DNA of 39,217 nucleotides from a virus. Location of the stretch: IMG/VR virus record IMGVR_UViG_3300045005_000291, positions 1-39,217 of that record. One strand, given 5' to 3'. Every line of letters begins with the position of its first letter. Within the stretch, counting starts at the first letter, position 1. The notes under the pieces are model-generated. The model was not told the DNA's origin, did no database searches, and saw only the letters and a program-made list of their open reading frames with translations. Below, piece after piece: positions 3,715-39,217 of this stretch. The translations under genes were made by a program, and so were the position numbers.

Positions 3715-4855
3715 CGATGCCTCCCGCCAGCTCTACGCTGATCCCGGTGCAATGCGCCCACCCTTGCGGCGGCACAGCCAGCGCCTGCAGTGGGGCCAAC
3801 AGCTCTACCTGGTACACGCCGGCCACCGACAGCACCGCGACGATCTGCGACGGCACCGGGTCGCGGCCCATGGCGGCGGACTGGGCGAGTGTGTAAGCGG
3901 CCGCCGCATCGTGGGCGGCATCCAGCGTGGCGCGGGCATCGGCGCTGCTGAACAGGGTCAGTCGGGCACGAATCGTGTAGGGGTATGCCACTGGTGGCAA
4001 CACGTCGACCAGGTCGGTCAGCGGCCGTGTTTTGTCCGCGCTGCAGGCAGCGGCCACCGCCGCCAGCGTGGCCGCGTCCGGCAGGCCGGACTTCAGCAGC
4101 GGAAACAGCCGCACCACGCCCGGTGGCACACCGTTTTGCGAGACCAGCTGGCCGTTCTGCAGCACCAGCTGCGGGCCCACCACCGCCACGTCCACAATGT
4201 CCTGATGCGCACGCAGGGCGTGGTGGCGGTACGCCAGGCGGCTGCCGGCCACGGTGAAGCTCTCCGGCGCCAGGCGGATGCGATCGCGCAGGCGGTCGTC
4301 GGTTTCCTCGTCAGCCCCGCCCTGCGTCACGCCTAGGTTGGCCACCGTCTCCACATCCACACCCACGTCGTCGACCAGCGCATTCACCTGGCCCGGCAAG
4401 TAGCCGTTGGCAGCCGCGCCGGGTTCGATCGCCACCACAGCCAGGTCGGCATAGGTGGCGGCGGCCGGGACGATGATCTGCGCTTCGGTCTGGAACTGCA
4501 CACCGCTGCCGGTCTCGACGCGGGTCTCGGCGGGGATAGCCAGGCTGCTTGCCAGGGCTTCGGTGAAGGTCAGGCGCACGGTGCAGCGGGCGCTTTGTGC
4601 CGGCAGCCGGCTTACCCCCACCAGCTCGCCCAGATAGTCCAGCATCGGGGCGCGGGCGAAGGCCACCAGGTTCTGGCGGCCGGTGTCGTTGATAGCGGCG
4701 CGGGTCACGCTCTCGCGGTAGGCAATCAGGTCGATCATCAGGCGGTCGACATGGGCCGGGTACAGCGTCTTGCCGGTCATCGCCTCGTAGGCGCTGATCA
4801 GCTCCTGGGTGACCGCAGTCGGGTCGTCGGTAATGAACTTCGGGAGGTCGCTCAT
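3707..4855 (-). CDS. Baseplate wedge protein J (Mu gp47-like)
   Basis: A 382-residue Baseplate_J family protein. The N-terminus (FITDDPTAVTQELISAYEAMTGKTLYPAHVDRL) and the central EETDDRLRDRIRLAPESFTVAGS, followed by YRHHAL, are characteristic of the family. It forms the wedge of the contractile-tail baseplate together with gpW and gpI. ATGA overlap with the upstream W gene and eight-base overlap with I show tight coupling. Length and order are normal, with nothing missing. Confidence 0.95.
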   Translation of the reverse strand: MSDLPKFITDDPTAVTQELISAYEAMTGKTLYPAHVDRLMIDLIAYRESVTRAAINDTGRQNLVAFARAPMLDYLGELVGVSRLPAQSARCTVRLTFTEALASSLAIPAETRVETGSGVQFQTEAQIIVPAAATYADLAVVAIEPGAAANGYLPGQVNALVDDVGVDVETVANLGVTQGGADEETDDRLRDRIRLAPESFTVAGSRLAYRHHALRAHQDIVDVAVVGPQLVLQNGQLVSQNGVPPGVVRLFPLLKSGLPDAATLAAVAAACSADKTRPLTDLVDVLPPVAYPYTIRARLTLFSSADARATLDAAHDAAAAYTLAQSAAMGRDPVPSQIVAVLSVAGVYQVELLAPLQALAVPPQGWAHCTGISVELAGGIDG

Positions 4856-5217
4856 AGCGCCACCTCCGTCTCGATCTGTACGCCGCCCGCCAGGCGAGAT
4901 TGCACCCGCAGGCGGACGTGGCCAGGCGTGAGGTGGTCAAATAGCACGCGCTGTACGGTGACACGCGGCTCGCCGTACAGTGGGTCGCTAATGGCTTCCA
5001 CCACCTCGCGCACCACGTGCGGCCGGGCGCGGTCCACCGGGTAATCGAGATACGGGTGCAGCTTGCTGCCAAACTGCGGCCGCAGCGGATCGGCGCCCTT
5101 GGGGGTGCGCAGGATCACGCGGATAGCCTGGTGGATGTCGTCGACGTTTTCGACGACGCCGTCGCCGCCAAGGGCGGGCTGCCAGTGCAGGGAGGAAATG
5201 TCAGATAGCCGGGTCAT
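4852..5217 (-). CDS. Baseplate wedge protein W (T4 gp25-like, Mu gp46-like)
   Basis: A 121-residue protein of the gpW/gp25 lysozyme-like baseplate family. DDIHQAIRVILRTPKGADPLRPQFGSKL and the following YLDYPVD are the conserved family core. It seeds sheath attachment in the baseplate. The start codon lies directly after a seven-base-pair hairpin (5218-5234) and a copy of the late promoter-like element, so this gene probably heads a separate late transcript (W-J-I-fibres). Confidence 0.93.
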   Translation of the reverse strand: MTRLSDISSLHWQPALGGDGVVENVDDIHQAIRVILRTPKGADPLRPQFGSKLHPYLDYPVDRARPHVVREVVEAISDPLYGEPRVTVQRVLFDHLTPGHVRLRVQSRLAGGVQIETEVAL

Positions 5218-5266
5218 GGCGACAGGATGTCGCCGGCCGGGGGCATGGGCTAGTAAAGCGGGTTAG
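5218..5266 (-). promoter_or_regulatory. Late promoter-like element C, upstream of gpW
   Basis: On the + strand, GGGCTAGTAA at 5247-5256, then six bases, then TTAG at 5263-5266. This matches the elements before the endolysin and protease genes (GGGCTTTTAA-N6-TTAA) in layout, and its N6 (AGCGGG) is close to that of the protease copy (ATCGGG). Between it and the gpW start lies a perfect hairpin GGCGACA-GGA-TGTCGCC (5218-5234). It also overlaps a TAGAAT -10-like box (5264-5269) pointing the other way, towards the DUF4145 gene. Confidence 0.55.
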
Positions 5267-12397: not shown

Positions 12398-12497
12398 TCT
12401 GCTCTGCCGCCGCGTCTACCCAGCGGAAAAAGTCTGGCACCGTGAGCCGGTCGATTTCACCCGGCTGAAAGCGGAACCACCTCGCCAGCAGTGCCGC
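12369..12497 (-). CDS. Tail chaperone extension E' (reached by frameshift)
   Basis: In the frame shifted -2 (equivalently +1) from gene E the sequence encodes LARWFRFQPGEIDRL and then TVPDFFRWVDAAAEQI, ending HGSGE. This is the typical small GpE/E' chaperone segment of P2- and Mu-type tails. It has no start codon or ribosome site of its own close by. The E frame passes GGG-GGC-GGC at 12493-12501, where a slip of the Gly tRNA from GGC back to GGG would enter this frame. The fused product would be about 131 residues. The stop is TAA at 12369-12371. Confidence 0.75.
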   Translation of the reverse strand, partial: AALLARWFRFQPGEIDRLTVPDFFRWVDAAAEQIKHEHGSGE

Positions 12498-12762
12498 CCC
12501 CGTCCATAGCGTTTGCGCTGATACCCAGCACGTCCAGAAATCGCGCCTTCAGGCGCTGGTAATCTGCCGCGTCCATGTCGTCCAGGTCTTCCGGCACCAG
12601 GCCTGCCATGCGCGCCACGCCCAGTAGCTCCATCTGCGCCGGCTGGGCGTCGCCCTGGTCGCTGATGGCCTTGATGTCGCGCACCTTCAGGCGGCGCAGG
12701 GTCAGTGCCTCGATGCGCAGGCCGGACGGGGCGGTGTAAGGGTAAAGAAGGGTGAATTCCAT
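12457..12762 (-). CDS. Tail assembly chaperone E (Mu gp41-like)
   Basis: A 101-residue Phage_TAC-type protein: LRIEALTLRRLKVRDIKAI followed by LGVARMAGLVPEDLDDMDAADYQRL. It binds the tape measure during tail assembly and is normally made in two forms, E alone and E-E' by ribosomal frameshifting. The ribosome site CAGGAG precedes the ATG at 12762. The G-rich slip site lies 14 codons before the TGA stop. Confidence 0.92.
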   Translation of the reverse strand: MEFTLLYPYTAPSGLRIEALTLRRLKVRDIKAISDQGDAQPAQMELLGVARMAGLVPEDLDDMDAADYQRLKARFLDVLGISANAMDGGGTAGEVVPLSAG

Positions 12763-12854
12763 GATGGCTCCTGCCGGTGTGGGGTATGGCAGGATGGTGG
12801 GCTTAGCTGGCGCGGAAGTCGGTTAAACCTGTTTACGAATAGAGAACACGCAAA

Positions 12855-19131: not shown

Positions 19132-19602
19132 TTACAGCAGCTGGCGCACAGCCTGCTCGTAGGGGATGCCTTTTTCGGCGGCCAGCTCGGTGGCGCGTAC
19201 ATGCAGGCTCAGGCGATCGGGGTCGGTGGGCTTTTCGGCAAACTCGGCGGCATGGGTGTCGCCGCCTTTGCCGGACTTGTCCTTGGTGGCGGTCTCGCCA
19301 AACTCGACTACTTTGGGCATATCGCCCAGGAAGGACTTGAAGGCGGTGGCCAGCGGTTGCTTGGCATCACCCTCGCCAAATGCCACCGCACGCTCGCCAT
19401 CGGCAAAGTCGAGGAACGCCACCACGGTGCCCTTGTGTTTCGGCGCCAGCTTGCCTTCGCCGACCAGCTGCTCGGCAAAGGCGGCGTGCTCGCCGTGGCG
19501 CCGGGCTGCCGCTGCCGATTTCGTCGCGGCCTCCGCCGCTGCCAGGCGTTGTTTCAGCTGGGCGTTTTCGGCCTCCAGCGCGGCCTTTTCTTCAGGGGTC
19601 AC
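19132..19602 (-). CDS. Nested scaffold protein (gpZ-like) from internal GTG
   Basis: Inside the protease frame a GTG at 19602 is preceded, seven bases away, by a perfect GAGGAG ribosome site (19610-19615). It begins VTPEEKAALEAENAQL, exactly at the coiled-coil scaffold domain, and would give a 156-residue protein sharing the protease C-terminus. Mu makes its scaffold Z the same way from within gene I. Confidence 0.75.
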   Translation of the reverse strand: MTPEEKAALEAENAQLKQRLAAAEAATKSAAAARRHGEHAAFAEQLVGEGKLAPKHKGTVVAFLDFADGERAVAFGEGDAKQPLATAFKSFLGDMPKVVEFGETATKDKSGKGGDTHAAEFAEKPTDPDRLSLHVRATELAAEKGIPYEQAVRQLL

Positions 19603-20256
19603 ATGACGCTCCTCTTCGGTGGTTCGGGTCGGGGAAACAGTGGTGTCAGCAGGGTCAGCGAAGGCCAAGCGCGAGCTGTCGCCTTGCAGCGCCAGCTCGC
19701 GCAGTGATTCGATCTGCCAGTCGGGCACCACCTGGTCGGCGGTTTCCTGATCGAACTTGGCCAGCAGCCATTCACGCAGGCGGCGCCACAGCGAGGCGGT
19801 GTCGTACAGGCCGCTGGCGGCAAACTCGACCACGCCTGCTTCGGCATCGGCGAAGGCGGCTTGCTTGAGGCCCTTCACGGCTGGTGGCTGGGCACCCAGA
19901 AAACCGACATGGCGCAGGTAGTACACGCCGGGTACCGGATTGTTGGGGGCATCGGGCAGGTAGAAGCTGGCGCTGATCTTCTTGTAGCGGCCAGCGGCCA
20001 CCAACTCGGCGAAGGCGGCATCCACCTGCTGCGGTGTGGCCTCCAGGCCGTCACTGCCTGCAGCCAGCGACCTCACCCAGCCGTAGGCCGGGGCATCGTG
20101 TTTGGGGTGTCCGATGACGATGGGCGCTTCATGCAGTGCCGGATCGTAGGCGCGGGCACTGGCCGCGAGGTCGGACTCGGAGAAATCAAGCACCGCACCA
20201 GACATCGCGGTCTGACGGCCGGGCTTGAAAATGTGCAGGGGTTTGGTCGCGTTCAT
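19132..20256 (-). CDS. Prohead protease I with C-terminal scaffold domain
   Basis: A 374-residue Mu gpI-type protein. The N-terminal about 160 residues hold the protease domain, with FSESDLAASARAYDPALHEAP, GHPKHDAPAYGWV (likely catalytic His region) and YKKISASFYLP (likely active Ser). Residues from about 219 on form a coiled-coil scaffold (EEKAALEAENAQLKQRLAAAEA). The protease matures the prohead and removes the scaffold. The start codon sits inside a hairpin of late element B, and the gene probably heads its own late transcript. An internal in-frame start produces the scaffold alone. Confidence 0.93.
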   Translation of the reverse strand: MNATKPLHIFKPGRQTAMSGAVLDFSESDLAASARAYDPALHEAPIVIGHPKHDAPAYGWVRSLAAGSDGLEATPQQVDAAFAELVAAGRYKKISASFYLPDAPNNPVPGVYYLRHVGFLGAQPPAVKGLKQAAFADAEAGVVEFAASGLYDTASLWRRLREWLLAKFDQETADQVVPDWQIESLRELALQGDSSRLAFADPADTTVSPTRTTEEERHVTPEEKAALEAENAQLKQRLAAAEAATKSAAAARRHGEHAAFAEQLVGEGKLAPKHKGTVVAFLDFADGERAVAFGEGDAKQPLATAFKSFLGDMPKVVEFGETATKDKSGKGGDTHAAEFAEKPTDPDRLSLHVRATELAAEKGIPYEQAVRQLL

Positions 20257-20306
20257 GCCACCATGATCGGCGGCATGAACGGAAAGGGCTTTTAAATCGG
20301 GTTAAA
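20248..20306 (-). promoter_or_regulatory. Late promoter-like element B with start-codon hairpin (protease I)
   Basis: On the + strand, GGGCTTTTAA then six bases then TTAA (dyad 20292-20305). Next to it is a hairpin GTTCATGCC / GGCATGAAC (20251-20280) that contains the protease start codon. The 59 bases align without a gap to 27821-27879 before the endolysin. The stem bases differ in a compensatory way (AACATG..CATGTT there, TTCATG..CATGAA here). Confidence 0.65.
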
Positions 20307-27288: not shown

Positions 27289-27807
27289 TTAGTCCTGCAG
27301 GCTGCCAGCCAGTGGCTTCATCCCGCCCTGCAACCAGTCGGCTACATTGAAGCCGGGGCAGGTTTTGAGCCATTCCCCTGGTTCAACCGTGCCGTCGCCA
27401 TCCTTGTCTGGCGACAGGTCACGGTGGCCCACCACACGGGCCGCCGGGTACTGCGCCTTCAGCGCTTTTACCAGGCTGTGCAGTGCAGCCCACTGCGCCC
27501 GGGTAAAGCGGCTGGTGCCTACCAGACAGATGCCGATGGATTGGGCGTTGAAGCCCTGGACGTGCGCGCCGACCTCGGCAATGCCTCGGCCGGTGTGCTT
27601 GCTGCCATCGGTATCCAGCACGAAGTGGTAGCCGATGGCGGGTAGATGCGGGTTGAGCTGTGCCAGCGCAGCAGGCTGGCGTTTGAAGCCACGCTGGGCA
27701 TGCCAGCTATCGATGACCGCTGCGGTGCTTTTGGTCGGGCTACCCAGCTGCCGGCCATTGGCGCTGGCCGAGCAGTGGATAACGATGCAGTTGATGGTGC
27801 GGGACAT
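27289..27807 (-). CDS. Endolysin, N-acetylmuramoyl-L-alanine amidase
   Basis: A 172-residue Amidase_2 (T7 lysozyme-like) protein from MSRTINCIVIHCSA. It cuts the amide bond between muramic acid and the peptide stem. Zinc ligands are likely His11, the His of VVGHRDLSPD and the Cys of KTCPGF; IGYHFVLDTDG and a DKDGDGTVEPGEW loop are family features. AGGAGGGG lies directly before this ATG. Heads the lysis cassette. Confidence 0.94.
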   Translation of the reverse strand: MSRTINCIVIHCSASANGRQLGSPTKSTAAVIDSWHAQRGFKRQPAALAQLNPHLPAIGYHFVLDTDGSKHTGRGIAEVGAHVQGFNAQSIGICLVGTSRFTRAQWAALHSLVKALKAQYPAARVVGHRDLSPDKDGDGTVEPGEWLKTCPGFNVADWLQGGMKPLAGSLQD

Positions 27808-27820
27808 GATCCCCTCCTGA

Positions 27821-27879
27821 CGCGAACATGCCGCCATTGTCGGCGGCATGTTGGGGAGGGGCTTTTAATGGGGTTTAAT
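27821..27879 (-). promoter_or_regulatory. Late promoter-like element A with hairpin leader (lysis cassette)
   Basis: On the + strand the element reads GGGCTTTTAA, six bases, TTAA (dyad 27865-27878). An 11-base-pair hairpin AACATGCCGCC / GGCGGCATGTT (27825-27852) lies between it and the endolysin start. Same layout and sequence as the element before protease I; about three quarters of 59 bases are identical with no gaps. The position is that of Mu's Plys. Confidence 0.65.
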
Positions 27880-27901: not shown

Positions 27902-29179
27902 TTAAAACTTTATCTTCGCTATTCCAGCCATGCCTTGAAGCTTTTTCTTAAATTTCTCTGGAAGCCATTTCACTACTGTCCAGGCTAGCACGTCGTATGT
28001 CAGCATTGGTAACGCGCAGTAAATACCCCAAAGGAGTGATTCAATTAATAATTCACGTGAGACCGAGAAATGCAAGAGCATCCCAGTGGTAACAGCTAGT
28101 GCTAGCGCAACAAGTAGATCTACAACCCTGATCAAACGCTCTTGATGCCTATATCGTTTGTCAAGTTGTTTGTAGCTAGCACTAAACCTGTCAGCGACAG
28201 AGTGATGCTTGCCTTTAATTTGTTGCCACTGCTGGTCAATCTCCTGCTGCACTGCATGTAGGGTATGGCGCTGATTTCTAACTAGCAAGGTCATTAAGAC
28301 GGCGAACACTAGAACTCCCAGCCAAATTAGAAGATTTTTACTGGACCAGGCGGCTTTATCTTCCATTTGGCCACCAGCCAAAACCAAAGCAGCAGGAACA
28401 GCTAGCAACTGATTCTGAATATCCGAGAAGACTTTGTTTAGTTTGGTTGTTGCATCTAACTTTTCCTTTTCTACTTCGGCTTTAACCTTTTGGAACGAGA
28501 ATTCGGAAACATAAAGCTGATAACTGGCCTGCACCTTCTCTAAGAATTCACTAAATTGTGATAATAATTCAGAGAATGGAACCCGACTTCGGCCTGTGAA
28601 CATTTCTAGTAAAACCGTTTTGATGATTGTCTTCTTTTGTTCCTTATGTGTTTTTGATTCAGTGAATTCAGATTGAAATTCGGAAATTCCCGTTAGGGTA
28701 CAGAGATTTTCAGAGTTGTATTCTGGGGCAAATTCGATTTTTTCCTTCTGAAGGAAGATCAATGTTTTTGCACTGCCAATGCCACCTTGGTGGTCAGCGG
28801 TTTTTTCTAGAAGCGAGTACAATTTTGTTGCGGCAATGTAGCGCTCAACGGGCTCTGGGGGTGAAACTGAATCATTCTTGTGCTGATAATCACAGTCTGC
28901 CAAGTAAAAGCGAGGTGGCGGTGTAATTCGCCGACTTGGCGCCTCTAGCAGTGCGGACAAGGATATGAAAAAATCTATAGGGAGGTGGAACTCCAAAAAT
29001 CTGAGATTCTTGTTTGCTGCAATCAGCAGATCACAAGAGTCGAGGCGCGCCTCAACCGCCTCGAAATCAATTTCATCAGAGACAGTCCCACTAAGTTGCC
29101 CAGACGCGACTTCACGATTCGGCATGCTTTTATATAGCAGAATCGTGAGATCAAGCGGGTCGTCAGGTAGCAGGTTCAT
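27902..29179 (-). CDS. Multi-pass membrane protein paired with NdpA (cargo unit gene 2)
   Basis: A 425-residue protein not recognised by family. Residues 1-185 look soluble, about 190-260 are helical (LLSQFSEFLEKVQASYQLYV, VEKEKLDATTKLNKVFSDI), and three membrane segments follow near 283-303, 350-370 and 378-402. The C-terminus is basic. It overlaps the NdpA-like gene by 17 bases, so the two are co-translated. Base composition is strongly AT-rich relative to the phage core, indicating recent or separate acquisition. A membrane effector coupled to a nucleoid-associated sensor is one plausible reading; no function is established. Confidence 0.7.
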   Translation of the reverse strand: MNLLPDDPLDLTILLYKSMPNREVASGQLSGTVSDEIDFEAVEARLDSCDLLIAANKNLRFLEFHLPIDFFISLSALLEAPSRRITPPPRFYLADCDYQHKNDSVSPPEPVERYIAATKLYSLLEKTADHQGGIGSAKTLIFLQKEKIEFAPEYNSENLCTLTGISEFQSEFTESKTHKEQKKTIIKTVLLEMFTGRSRVPFSELLSQFSEFLEKVQASYQLYVSEFSFQKVKAEVEKEKLDATTKLNKVFSDIQNQLLAVPAALVLAGGQMEDKAAWSSKNLLIWLGVLVFAVLMTLLVRNQRHTLHAVQQEIDQQWQQIKGKHHSVADRFSASYKQLDKRYRHQERLIRVVDLLVALALAVTTGMLLHFSVSRELLIESLLWGIYCALPMLTYDVLAWTVVKWLPEKFKKKLQGMAGIAKIKF

Positions 29180-30200
29180 CTTTTTTTGCTTTGTGCGTCT
29201 TTATCTCTTTGATTAGTTCTTCCGGCAGGTCTGAGATGACCAAGCTGTTACTGGTCTCATCATAGTCAACACGCCCATCCATCAGGTCCTGAACATCAAA
29301 GCTCACTTTCACAGAGCCGAACTGACGACTGATCCGCTTGAACCGGACATAGGTCTCTTTATGGGGCTTGAATGTTTCGCTGACTTCGTAGCCGTTTTCC
29401 CGTACGAAACCTACAAACGCATCAGGCTGTTGATCATTGACCACTGCGGAAAGTGCAGTCAGGTTGACTGGCTCCTCTGCTTTCGTTTTGGCTTCGCAGT
29501 ACTCGTAGACACGTCGCCGTGCCTCACGCTTTTGCTCTGTTGTCCAGTCTTGCGAGAGACAGTAGGCTTCGACAGCATCGCGCATCTGCTGGGTATTATG
29601 CTTGGATTCGTTGTATTCGGTACAGCCCAAAGCCTTGCGGAAGTACAGGGTAACGTCTTCGCCACCGCTACGCTTTTTGATGAAAGATAGATAGGGCTGC
29701 TGATTTCTCTGCCACCTACCCAGGTCGATACGTGCAGCTTCGTGCAGATGATCAACATCAAAAGTCAATGTATCCAGAAGCTCAAGCGTCGTCTGATTGA
29801 TACCTGTGCCTGCCTTAAGCTTCAACATCACTACTAGCAACCAGTCTTGTCCTTGATTGATATAGCGAAGGAACAATGCATACCCGCCAGTCGCAAAAAA
29901 TGCGCTACTCATCTCCTTGGCAATCAAGTCAGTAGTTGACTCAGTAAAACCAATAAAGTCAGTGCCATTTACAGCATAGTTGCGTAGTAGTACGGGGAAA
30001 GGATACAAAATTTCATTAGCATCAAAGGTGCCGTATCCGCTGATGGACTTTGCATAAATCTTGAGAACATTCTCGGCTGTTTTCTGAAGCCGGTCATCAA
30101 TAGCTAGGCGTGTCTTTCTAGGGGTAACAGACACTGAATCGGCACCAGTCGTTTTTTCTTCCTTGGAAATCTTATGAAGAATAGCTTCTTGGATTTGCAT
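29163..30200 (-). CDS. NdpA/YejK-type nucleoid-associated protein (NA37 family)
   Basis: A 345-residue member of the 37-kDa nucleoid-associated family (YejK/NdpA, about 335 residues in E. coli). Visible family features: ATGGYALFLRYINQGQDWLL, LKLKAGTGINQTTLELLDTL, DVDHLHEAARIDLGRW, PYLSFIKKRSGG, YFRKALGCTEYNESKHNT and the C-terminal SFDVQDLMDGRVDYDE. Known relatives bind DNA, but their exact role is unclear. As a prophage cargo gene with a linked membrane protein it may sense invading or replicating DNA. AT-rich compared with neighbours. No strong ribosome site is seen before 30200. Confidence 0.9.
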   Translation of the reverse strand: MQIQEAILHKISKEEKTTGADSVSVTPRKTRLAIDDRLQKTAENVLKIYAKSISGYGTFDANEILYPFPVLLRNYAVNGTDFIGFTESTTDLIAKEMSSAFFATGGYALFLRYINQGQDWLLVVMLKLKAGTGINQTTLELLDTLTFDVDHLHEAARIDLGRWQRNQQPYLSFIKKRSGGEDVTLYFRKALGCTEYNESKHNTQQMRDAVEAYCLSQDWTTEQKREARRRVYEYCEAKTKAEEPVNLTALSAVVNDQQPDAFVGFVRENGYEVSETFKPHKETYVRFKRISRQFGSVKVSFDVQDLMDGRVDYDETSNSLVISDLPEELIKEIKTHKAKKDEPAT

Positions 30201-38255: not shown

Positions 38256-38870
38256 ATGCATGCACAGGAAATACAGCAAGCCCGCCAGCGCCTGATCAAG
38301 CTGATCCACGTTGCCAAGCGGGACATTGCACTGGATGACGATAGCTACCGTGCCATCTTGCTACGAATTGGTAACAAGGCTTCTGCGGCCGATTTGACCG
38401 TTCCAGAGCTGGAGAAGGTTTTGGAACACATGAAGCGTAGCGGCTTCAAGGTGCGTTCCAAGAAGAACGATCGGCCGCAGGCCAGCGACGATCAGTCGAA
38501 GATGATTCGCGGCCTGTGGCTGGCGCTGGCTGGCATGGAAGTAGTACGCAACTCATCCGAGGCAGCCTTGGGTGCCTTCGTGAAGCGTATGACCAAGGTC
38601 GATACCCTGCAATGGCTCTCGACCGAGCAGGCCAGCCAGGTGATTGAGCACTTAAAGGAATGGCGCGAACGCGTGACCAAGGATCGCCGTGCCAAGCTGG
38701 CCAAGGCCATGCACCTGGCGCTACCGACCAGCTACGAGATGCTTATGGCCCAAGAAGAGCAGTTGCGTGATGGTGCCGGTCTAGTACTGGGTCGCAAGGC
38801 CAGCGTGGCAGACATGACCGAAACCGAGTTTCAAACCGTATTGAGGCACTATGCCGAGGAGGAAGCATGA
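38256..38870 (+). CDS. Gp16/GemA-family regulatory protein (DUF1018)
   Basis: A 204-residue Mu gp16/GemA-type protein from MHAQEIQQARQRLIKLIHVA. Family features are KRDIALDDDSYRAILLRIGN, SKMIRGLWLALAGMEVVRN and HALPTSYEM-like segments. In Mu, GemA alters host gene expression and DNA supercoiling. GAGGAG lies ten bases upstream; overlap with Mor is ATGA. Confidence 0.92.
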   Translation: MHAQEIQQARQRLIKLIHVAKRDIALDDDSYRAILLRIGNKASAADLTVPELEKVLEHMKRSGFKVRSKKNDRPQASDDQSKMIRGLWLALAGMEVVRNSSEAALGAFVKRMTKVDTLQWLSTEQASQVIEHLKEWRERVTKDRRAKLAKAMHLALPTSYEMLMAQEEQLRDGAGLVLGRKASVADMTETEFQTVLRHYAEEEA

Positions 38871-39217
38871 AGGGAGAATTCCGAAGTAAAGGCCCGGAGC
38901 TGCTGGTCGATCTCTCCGTGCATGTCGCCGCTACGCTGGTCGAGCTGGCCAATATCGATCATGACAAGGCCGAGCAGCTGGGCCGCGAGATCGCGGACCG
39001 TATGGCGGCTCACTGGGGCGGGCAGAACATCTACTTTCCGATGGGCCTGTCCGTGAAGCTGTCTCGGCGCGATCAACAGATTTACGATGAATTCAACGGG
39101 ACTAACCATAGCGAGCTGGCACGCAAGTTCGGCGTGTCGCTTCAGTGGATTTACAGGATTGTGAAGACGGTACGCCAAGAAGAGATCGCCCGACGCCAGG
39201 GCGACATGTTCACCTAA
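38867..39217 (+). CDS. Mor-family middle/late transcription activator
   Basis: A 116-residue Mor-type activator: ATLVELANIDHDKAEQLGRE in the dimerisation part, GGQNIYFPMGLSVKLSRRD, then a C-terminal helix-turn-helix (HSELARKFGVSLQWIYRIVK). Mor dimers bind a dyad near -40 and recruit RNA polymerase. No separate C gene is seen, so Mor may act on the late elements at 27865, 20292 and 5247. Its stop codon is the last codon of the window. Confidence 0.94.
   Translation: MKGEFRSKGPELLVDLSVHVAATLVELANIDHDKAEQLGREIADRMAAHWGGQNIYFPMGLSVKLSRRDQQIYDEFNGTNHSELARKFGVSLQWIYRIVKTVRQEEIARRQGDMFT

Follow-up and report, generated by a model that had tools for sequence, protein, structure and literature searches.

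Our results suggest that a Mu-like phage, like many of its relatives, hides its late promoters inside its own RNA structures. In the 39,217 nucleotides of viral DNA analysed here (the window), Mor/C-type late promoters probably lie within translation-blocking RNA hairpins that are opened only by initiation at that very place. From the computed anatomy, fixed spacing, complementarity and covariation of these regions we infer start sites, activator binding, read-through and a translation block. Instead of a -35 box there would be a dyad near -42.5 to which the activator binds, and RNA polymerase would take the hairpin loop as -10 box, so that RNA starts at 27829 (the lysis operon, lys), 20256 (gene I) and 12787 (tail). 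Transcripts that begin elsewhere, for example in the cargo genes directly upstream of lys, would read through with both arms of the hairpin and fold in a way that ties up the Shine-Dalgarno sequence (SD; lys and tail) or the start codon (gene I) in a stem and prevents translation. RNA from the late promoter itself would lack the 5' arm, leaving the ribosome site free. Such a lock would keep lysis and head-processing genes silent in the prophage and before the late phase.

The earlier note on this DNA had described a dyad and an 11-bp hairpin before the endolysin gene. A sequence search confirms both, on the minus strand, which is the late strand (all features below lie on it unless stated otherwise). 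The lys leader consists of TTAA-N6-TTAA (27865-27878, from a motif search), AAGCCC and then AACATGCCGCC-GACAAT-GGCGGCATGTT. The perfect stem spans 27825-27852, with its 5' arm at 27842-27852, its loop at 27836-27841 and its 3' arm at 27825-27835, and it is among the longest perfect short-loop hairpins of the window. The gene I leader, delimited by motif search, folding and alignment of relatives, has the same order: TTAA-N6-TTAA (20292-20305), AAGCCC, then CGTTCATGCCGCC (20269-20281), GATCAT (20263-20268) and GGTGGCATGAACG (20250-20262), with the gene I start codon (20256) inside this second hairpin. The two leaders are alike in 44 of 59 bases without gaps, as had been claimed; the next best place on either strand of the window reaches 32 of 59. 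GGGCTTTTAA-N6-TTAA occurs without mismatch at exactly two sites, 27859-27878 and 20286-20305. The genes behind the leaders are indeed unrelated, one being an amidase endolysin, the first gene of the lys operon (27289-27807; phrog_822, 5.7e-47), and the other a Mu I-type head maturation protease (gene I, 19132-20256; alignment of relatives and family match). The claim that the stems differ in a compensatory way also holds: outer pairs change from AA/TT to TT/AA between the two leaders, and one G-C is replaced by G-U. No relatives of the leader DNA were found in phages or plasmids with blastn, and no Rfam family matched the window.

To place these parts in a wider set of phages, 80 viral and 36 genomic loci were fetched with protease I and their leaders aligned on the hairpin loop. 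About 100 relatives were examined, and because their sequences are related the counts are not independent. The aligned leaders run from the activator dyad over a fixed gap to NANNNT and six further bases, mostly followed by the gene I ATG. A weight matrix made from the dyad alone finds three late promoters (lys, I and tail) in many phages. With no -10 condition imposed, A...[AC]T stands at one exact spacing in 100 of 116 activator dyads, and at any other spacing in at most 20. This single fixed spacing points to the hairpin loop being the -10 box, which in turn predicts late starts at 27829, 20256, 12787 and, more weakly, 5217; the last two belong to two further late promoters of the same type in the window. 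The dyad is centred at -42.5 from the predicted start, has a spacer of about 6 bp and replaces the -35 box, as expected of a Mor/C promoter. At Mu Pm, the Mor dimer site is centred at -43.5, with two 5-bp repeats around a G/C-rich 6-bp spacer, and likewise replaces the -35 box (PMC4390567). The phage also encodes a Mor-family activator (38867-39217, plus strand; PF08765, 9e-44), which is presumed to act at the late promoters. Hence, the dyad is consistent with an activator site of the Mor/C type, and binding is predicted. This part of the earlier reading stands, although its plus-strand version of the dyad runs opposite to the direction in which the motif functions.

The earlier note had expected transcription to start around 27850 and had treated the hairpin as part of a 5' leader. 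Given the loop as -10 box, the predicted +1 (27829) falls inside the 3' arm, and the 5' arm would lie outside the late mRNA and pair only in read-through RNA. The term "leader hairpin" is therefore not quite right. One could still argue that late RNA starts around 27850 or upstream and that every late mRNA carries the hairpin, which would stabilise it or regulate its translation. Hairpin and covariation are as real under this explanation as under ours. We nevertheless consider it quite unlikely, since the loop matches a -10 box at the spacing seen in those 100 of 116 sites, the endolysin SD would stay permanently paired, the tail promoter has the same -10 box at the same spacing without any inner hairpin, and the gene I start codon coincides with the predicted +1 in most relatives.

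With the 5' strand of the hairpin predicted to lie ahead of the late RNA start, gene I appears to be leaderless, its AUG lying within the stem. In some Burkholderia/Pandoraea-type phages lys would be leaderless too. A second phage group (L033, L040, L042, L062, L064, L094, L099) carries CGGAA-N-TTCCG dyads instead of TTAA-N6-TTAA, and has a leaderless gene I and a -10-centred palindrome downstream, as in the TTAA group. The fourth promoter of the window (5217-5266, from the dyad search) has a weaker activator site at 5247-5266 and a -10 box CATCCT in GGCGAC-ATCCT-GTCGCC. It precedes a baseplate-wedge gene that comparison with relatives predicts to be leaderless, starting at 5217 (promoter/gene region 4852-5266). 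Outside the window, a strong palindrome is seen at this promoter only in L127 and L135; among the relatives L126-L145 the leaderless start is kept and the palindrome varies. Pseudomonas phage B3 (NC_006548) offers a close likeness. Its gene 36 (protease I) has CGCCGCC-tcactct-GGGCGGC and then directly ATG, downstream of an A/T dyad, which is the leaderless form predicted here. The dyad sequence is a different one, and the annotated start is an upstream CTG. This CTG start looks wrong, and the ATG at L120:9989 (region L120 9959-9989) fits the leaderless pattern. The arrangement seems to have gone unnoticed in the B3 record.

The earlier note missed an outer stem at lys, which gives the structure its likely purpose. 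In read-through RNA the inner hairpin is extended by CCCCTCC (27855-27861; -32 to -26, upstream of the predicted start), an anti-SD that pairs with the endolysin SD GGAGGGG (27811-27817). This RNA folds at -30.8 kcal/mol (z -3.7) with the SD paired; for gene I read-through RNA the z-score is -5.4. In the late RNA of lys in the window, the SD is partly paired with codons 2-3 (0.52 vs 0.80 in read-through RNA), and the predicted gain is moderate. Gene I has no SD, so that even a read-through RNA lacking this hairpin might be poorly translated. Both sides of the lys outer stem vary together in relatives (CCCTCCAGAT/GTCTGGAGGG, CCCCTCCTGAAATG/CATTTCAGGAGGGG and GCTCCAGA/TCTGGAGT).

Tail promoters contain a shorter version, in which the anti-SD sits between the -10 box and +1. 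In the window, the third late promoter has its activator site at 12823-12836 (dyad search) and, by dyad spacing, a -10 box CACCAT at 12794-12799 with its predicted +1 at 12787. TCCTGCC at -7 to -1 (12788-12794; 3 of 200 shuffles are as good) is complementary to GGCAGGA (12769-12775), which contains the SD of the tail gene at 12457-12762. The corresponding pairs elsewhere are GTCCTC/GAGGAC, CCTTAG/CTAAGG and CCTTCG/CGAAGG, and in most tail promoters the anti-SD ends at -3 to +4, right at the predicted start. A palindrome-only test had suggested the tail promoter as a negative control; we rejected it as such because of the anti-SD at -7 to -1.

Across 65 SD-type late promoters, mean SD pairing is computed to be 0.86 for read-through RNA, falls to 0.59 for late RNA and lies at 0.72 when the upstream part is shuffled. 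The SD-complementary helix is better than 95% of shuffles in 43 of the 65 (23 lys, 1 gene I and 19 third promoters), two of the 65 having no helix at all in this test. Among 150 other SD genes of the same phages, only two have an SD-linked anti-SD that beats shuffles. When the sequences are clustered, the test is passed by 15 of 28 clusters. Roughly one in three SD-type promoters fails it, and the lock is weak or missing in several clades, for example at the third promoter of L007 and at gene I of Gallibacterium-type phages.

The earlier note had also proposed that the structure itself is selected, and named a covariation check, which we ran. The lys inner stem is 96% paired, with both sides changed at 7 of 12 pairs; none of 500 shuffles reaches this, and slid registers fail the test. 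Covariation in the gene I stem is weaker (10 cells with two-sided changes vs 4.5), again with none of 500 shuffles as high. Hence, selection on the structure is borne out in both stems, and a structure conserved by covariation is what would be expected of a T4 gene e-type lock. Templated mutation of quasi-palindromes is known in general, and quasi-palindrome correction during replication could match arms without selection and would also yield double changes such as those in the lys stem. We regard this explanation as extremely improbable: the placement on the -10 box in distant phages, the occurrence of loops in two registers (5 and 6), the complementarity of the outer stem to the SD and the tolerance of G-U are all left unexplained by it.

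It is also conceivable that the pairing acts in DNA, where the inverted repeat that surrounds the -10 box could be the target of a dimeric protein or could open the promoter by cruciform extrusion. In favour of this, the -10 box forms the centre of the repeat in many phages, at lys as well as at gene I. The mispairs within arms, however, comprise 27 G-U (G-T in DNA) and 4 A-C. G-T and A-C are the same DNA mismatch seen from either strand, so this asymmetry, unexpected under DNA symmetry, indicates pairing of the sense-strand RNA; strand-biased cytosine deamination could contribute to it. Furthermore, the 5' arms of lys and gene I have 3.24 of 6 bases in common within a phage and 3.25 of 6 between phages. 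Arms that are no more alike within than between phages are strong evidence that the repeat is not there to be read by a shared sequence-specific protein. Many arms are just 6 bp long, and tail promoters have no repeat yet carry an anti-SD. We rejected a protein operator or cruciform at the -10 box because the arms are uncoupled within a phage and the mispairs are biased towards G-U, and consider any element of this kind unlikely.

For a lock on read-through RNA to matter, such RNA has to reach lys. Read-through is plausible because the window and 12 of 14 relatives have the gene next upstream of lys directed toward it. In L019 and L029 the lys structure is kept though the upstream genes are not directed toward lys. 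In the window, the slot upstream of lys (27902-30200) holds a cargo pair, an NA37-family nucleoid-associated protein (PF04245) and a phrog_5023 protein, for which PADLOC gave no match. An NA37 pair is also present in L006; the slot of L003 is filled by other genes and that of L049 by a type I restriction fragment. The cargo differs even where endolysins are nearly identical. Hairpins that lie between operons, with plausible read-through from upstream genes, could also serve as insulators, terminating transcription or directing RNA cleavage rather than hiding the ribosome site. That is very unlikely, as no U-run follows the hairpins, the lys hairpin is absent from the output of a terminator scan and the complementarity of the outer arm to the SD would be left unexplained.

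A translational lock of this kind is known from phage T4. Genes e (lysozyme), soc, 49 and I-TevI of T4 have a late promoter within a hairpin that sequesters the ribosome binding site: longer RNAs initiated upstream form an inhibitory helix over the SD and/or AUG, transcripts begun at the late promoter next to it do not contain the helix's 5' part and are well translated, and the helix lowers lysozyme synthesis 100-fold (PMC3014915). The logic computed here from sequence is the same, since transcripts that run through the promoter have their SD and/or AUG paired, and the best-documented T4 case is also a lysis gene. There are several differences. The phage groups are unrelated. Instead of TATAAATA, the promoters here are predicted to use sigma70 together with a Mor-family activator, and their -10 box forms the loop. 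One and the same phage would carry the lock at three or four late operons, leaderless genes included, and at lys two stems are nested.

Mu itself is closer in promoter type. Plys, PI, PP, Pmom and Pm share with our promoters late operons headed by lysis and protease I genes, a dyad for the -35 box and a -10 box at fixed spacing (PMC4461284, PMC4390567), whereas the activator sequence here is TTAA-N6-TTAA. At Mu PI and Plys an SD lock is not significant against shuffles, and CTGCTCA-N10-TGAGCAG around the -10 box and +1 of PI is a hint only. In read-through RNA of Mu com/mom (L125 12340-12385), GCGAATTGAT and ATCAATTCGC would form a stem of some 11 bp around the SD and start codon of com; the 5' arm of this stem is upstream of the annotated Pmom start. 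A literature search, with most subscription papers outside its reach, found no report of a promoter-in-hairpin mechanism in Mu-like phages.

With less confidence than for the mechanism itself, we lean towards a common lock on the late operons of an entire group of Mu-like phages, which would have evolved independently of T4. It would take three forms: a nested anti-SD, an anti-SD between the -10 box and +1, and a leaderless start codon in a stem. The lock on the lysis gene would face a variable cargo slot, so that read-through from cargo cannot lyse the lysogen. If this is true, then a late promoter within an RNA lock is not a peculiarity of T4 and instead represents a general, repeatedly evolved way to silence lysis and head-processing genes until the late phase. 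It would also predict leaderless late mRNAs and correct gene starts, and would provide a rule for finding late promoters, namely that the segment from -7 to -1, or a C-rich stretch upstream, is complementary to the SD. Finally, it would make clear how a temperate phage can afford expressed cargo directly before its lysis cassette.
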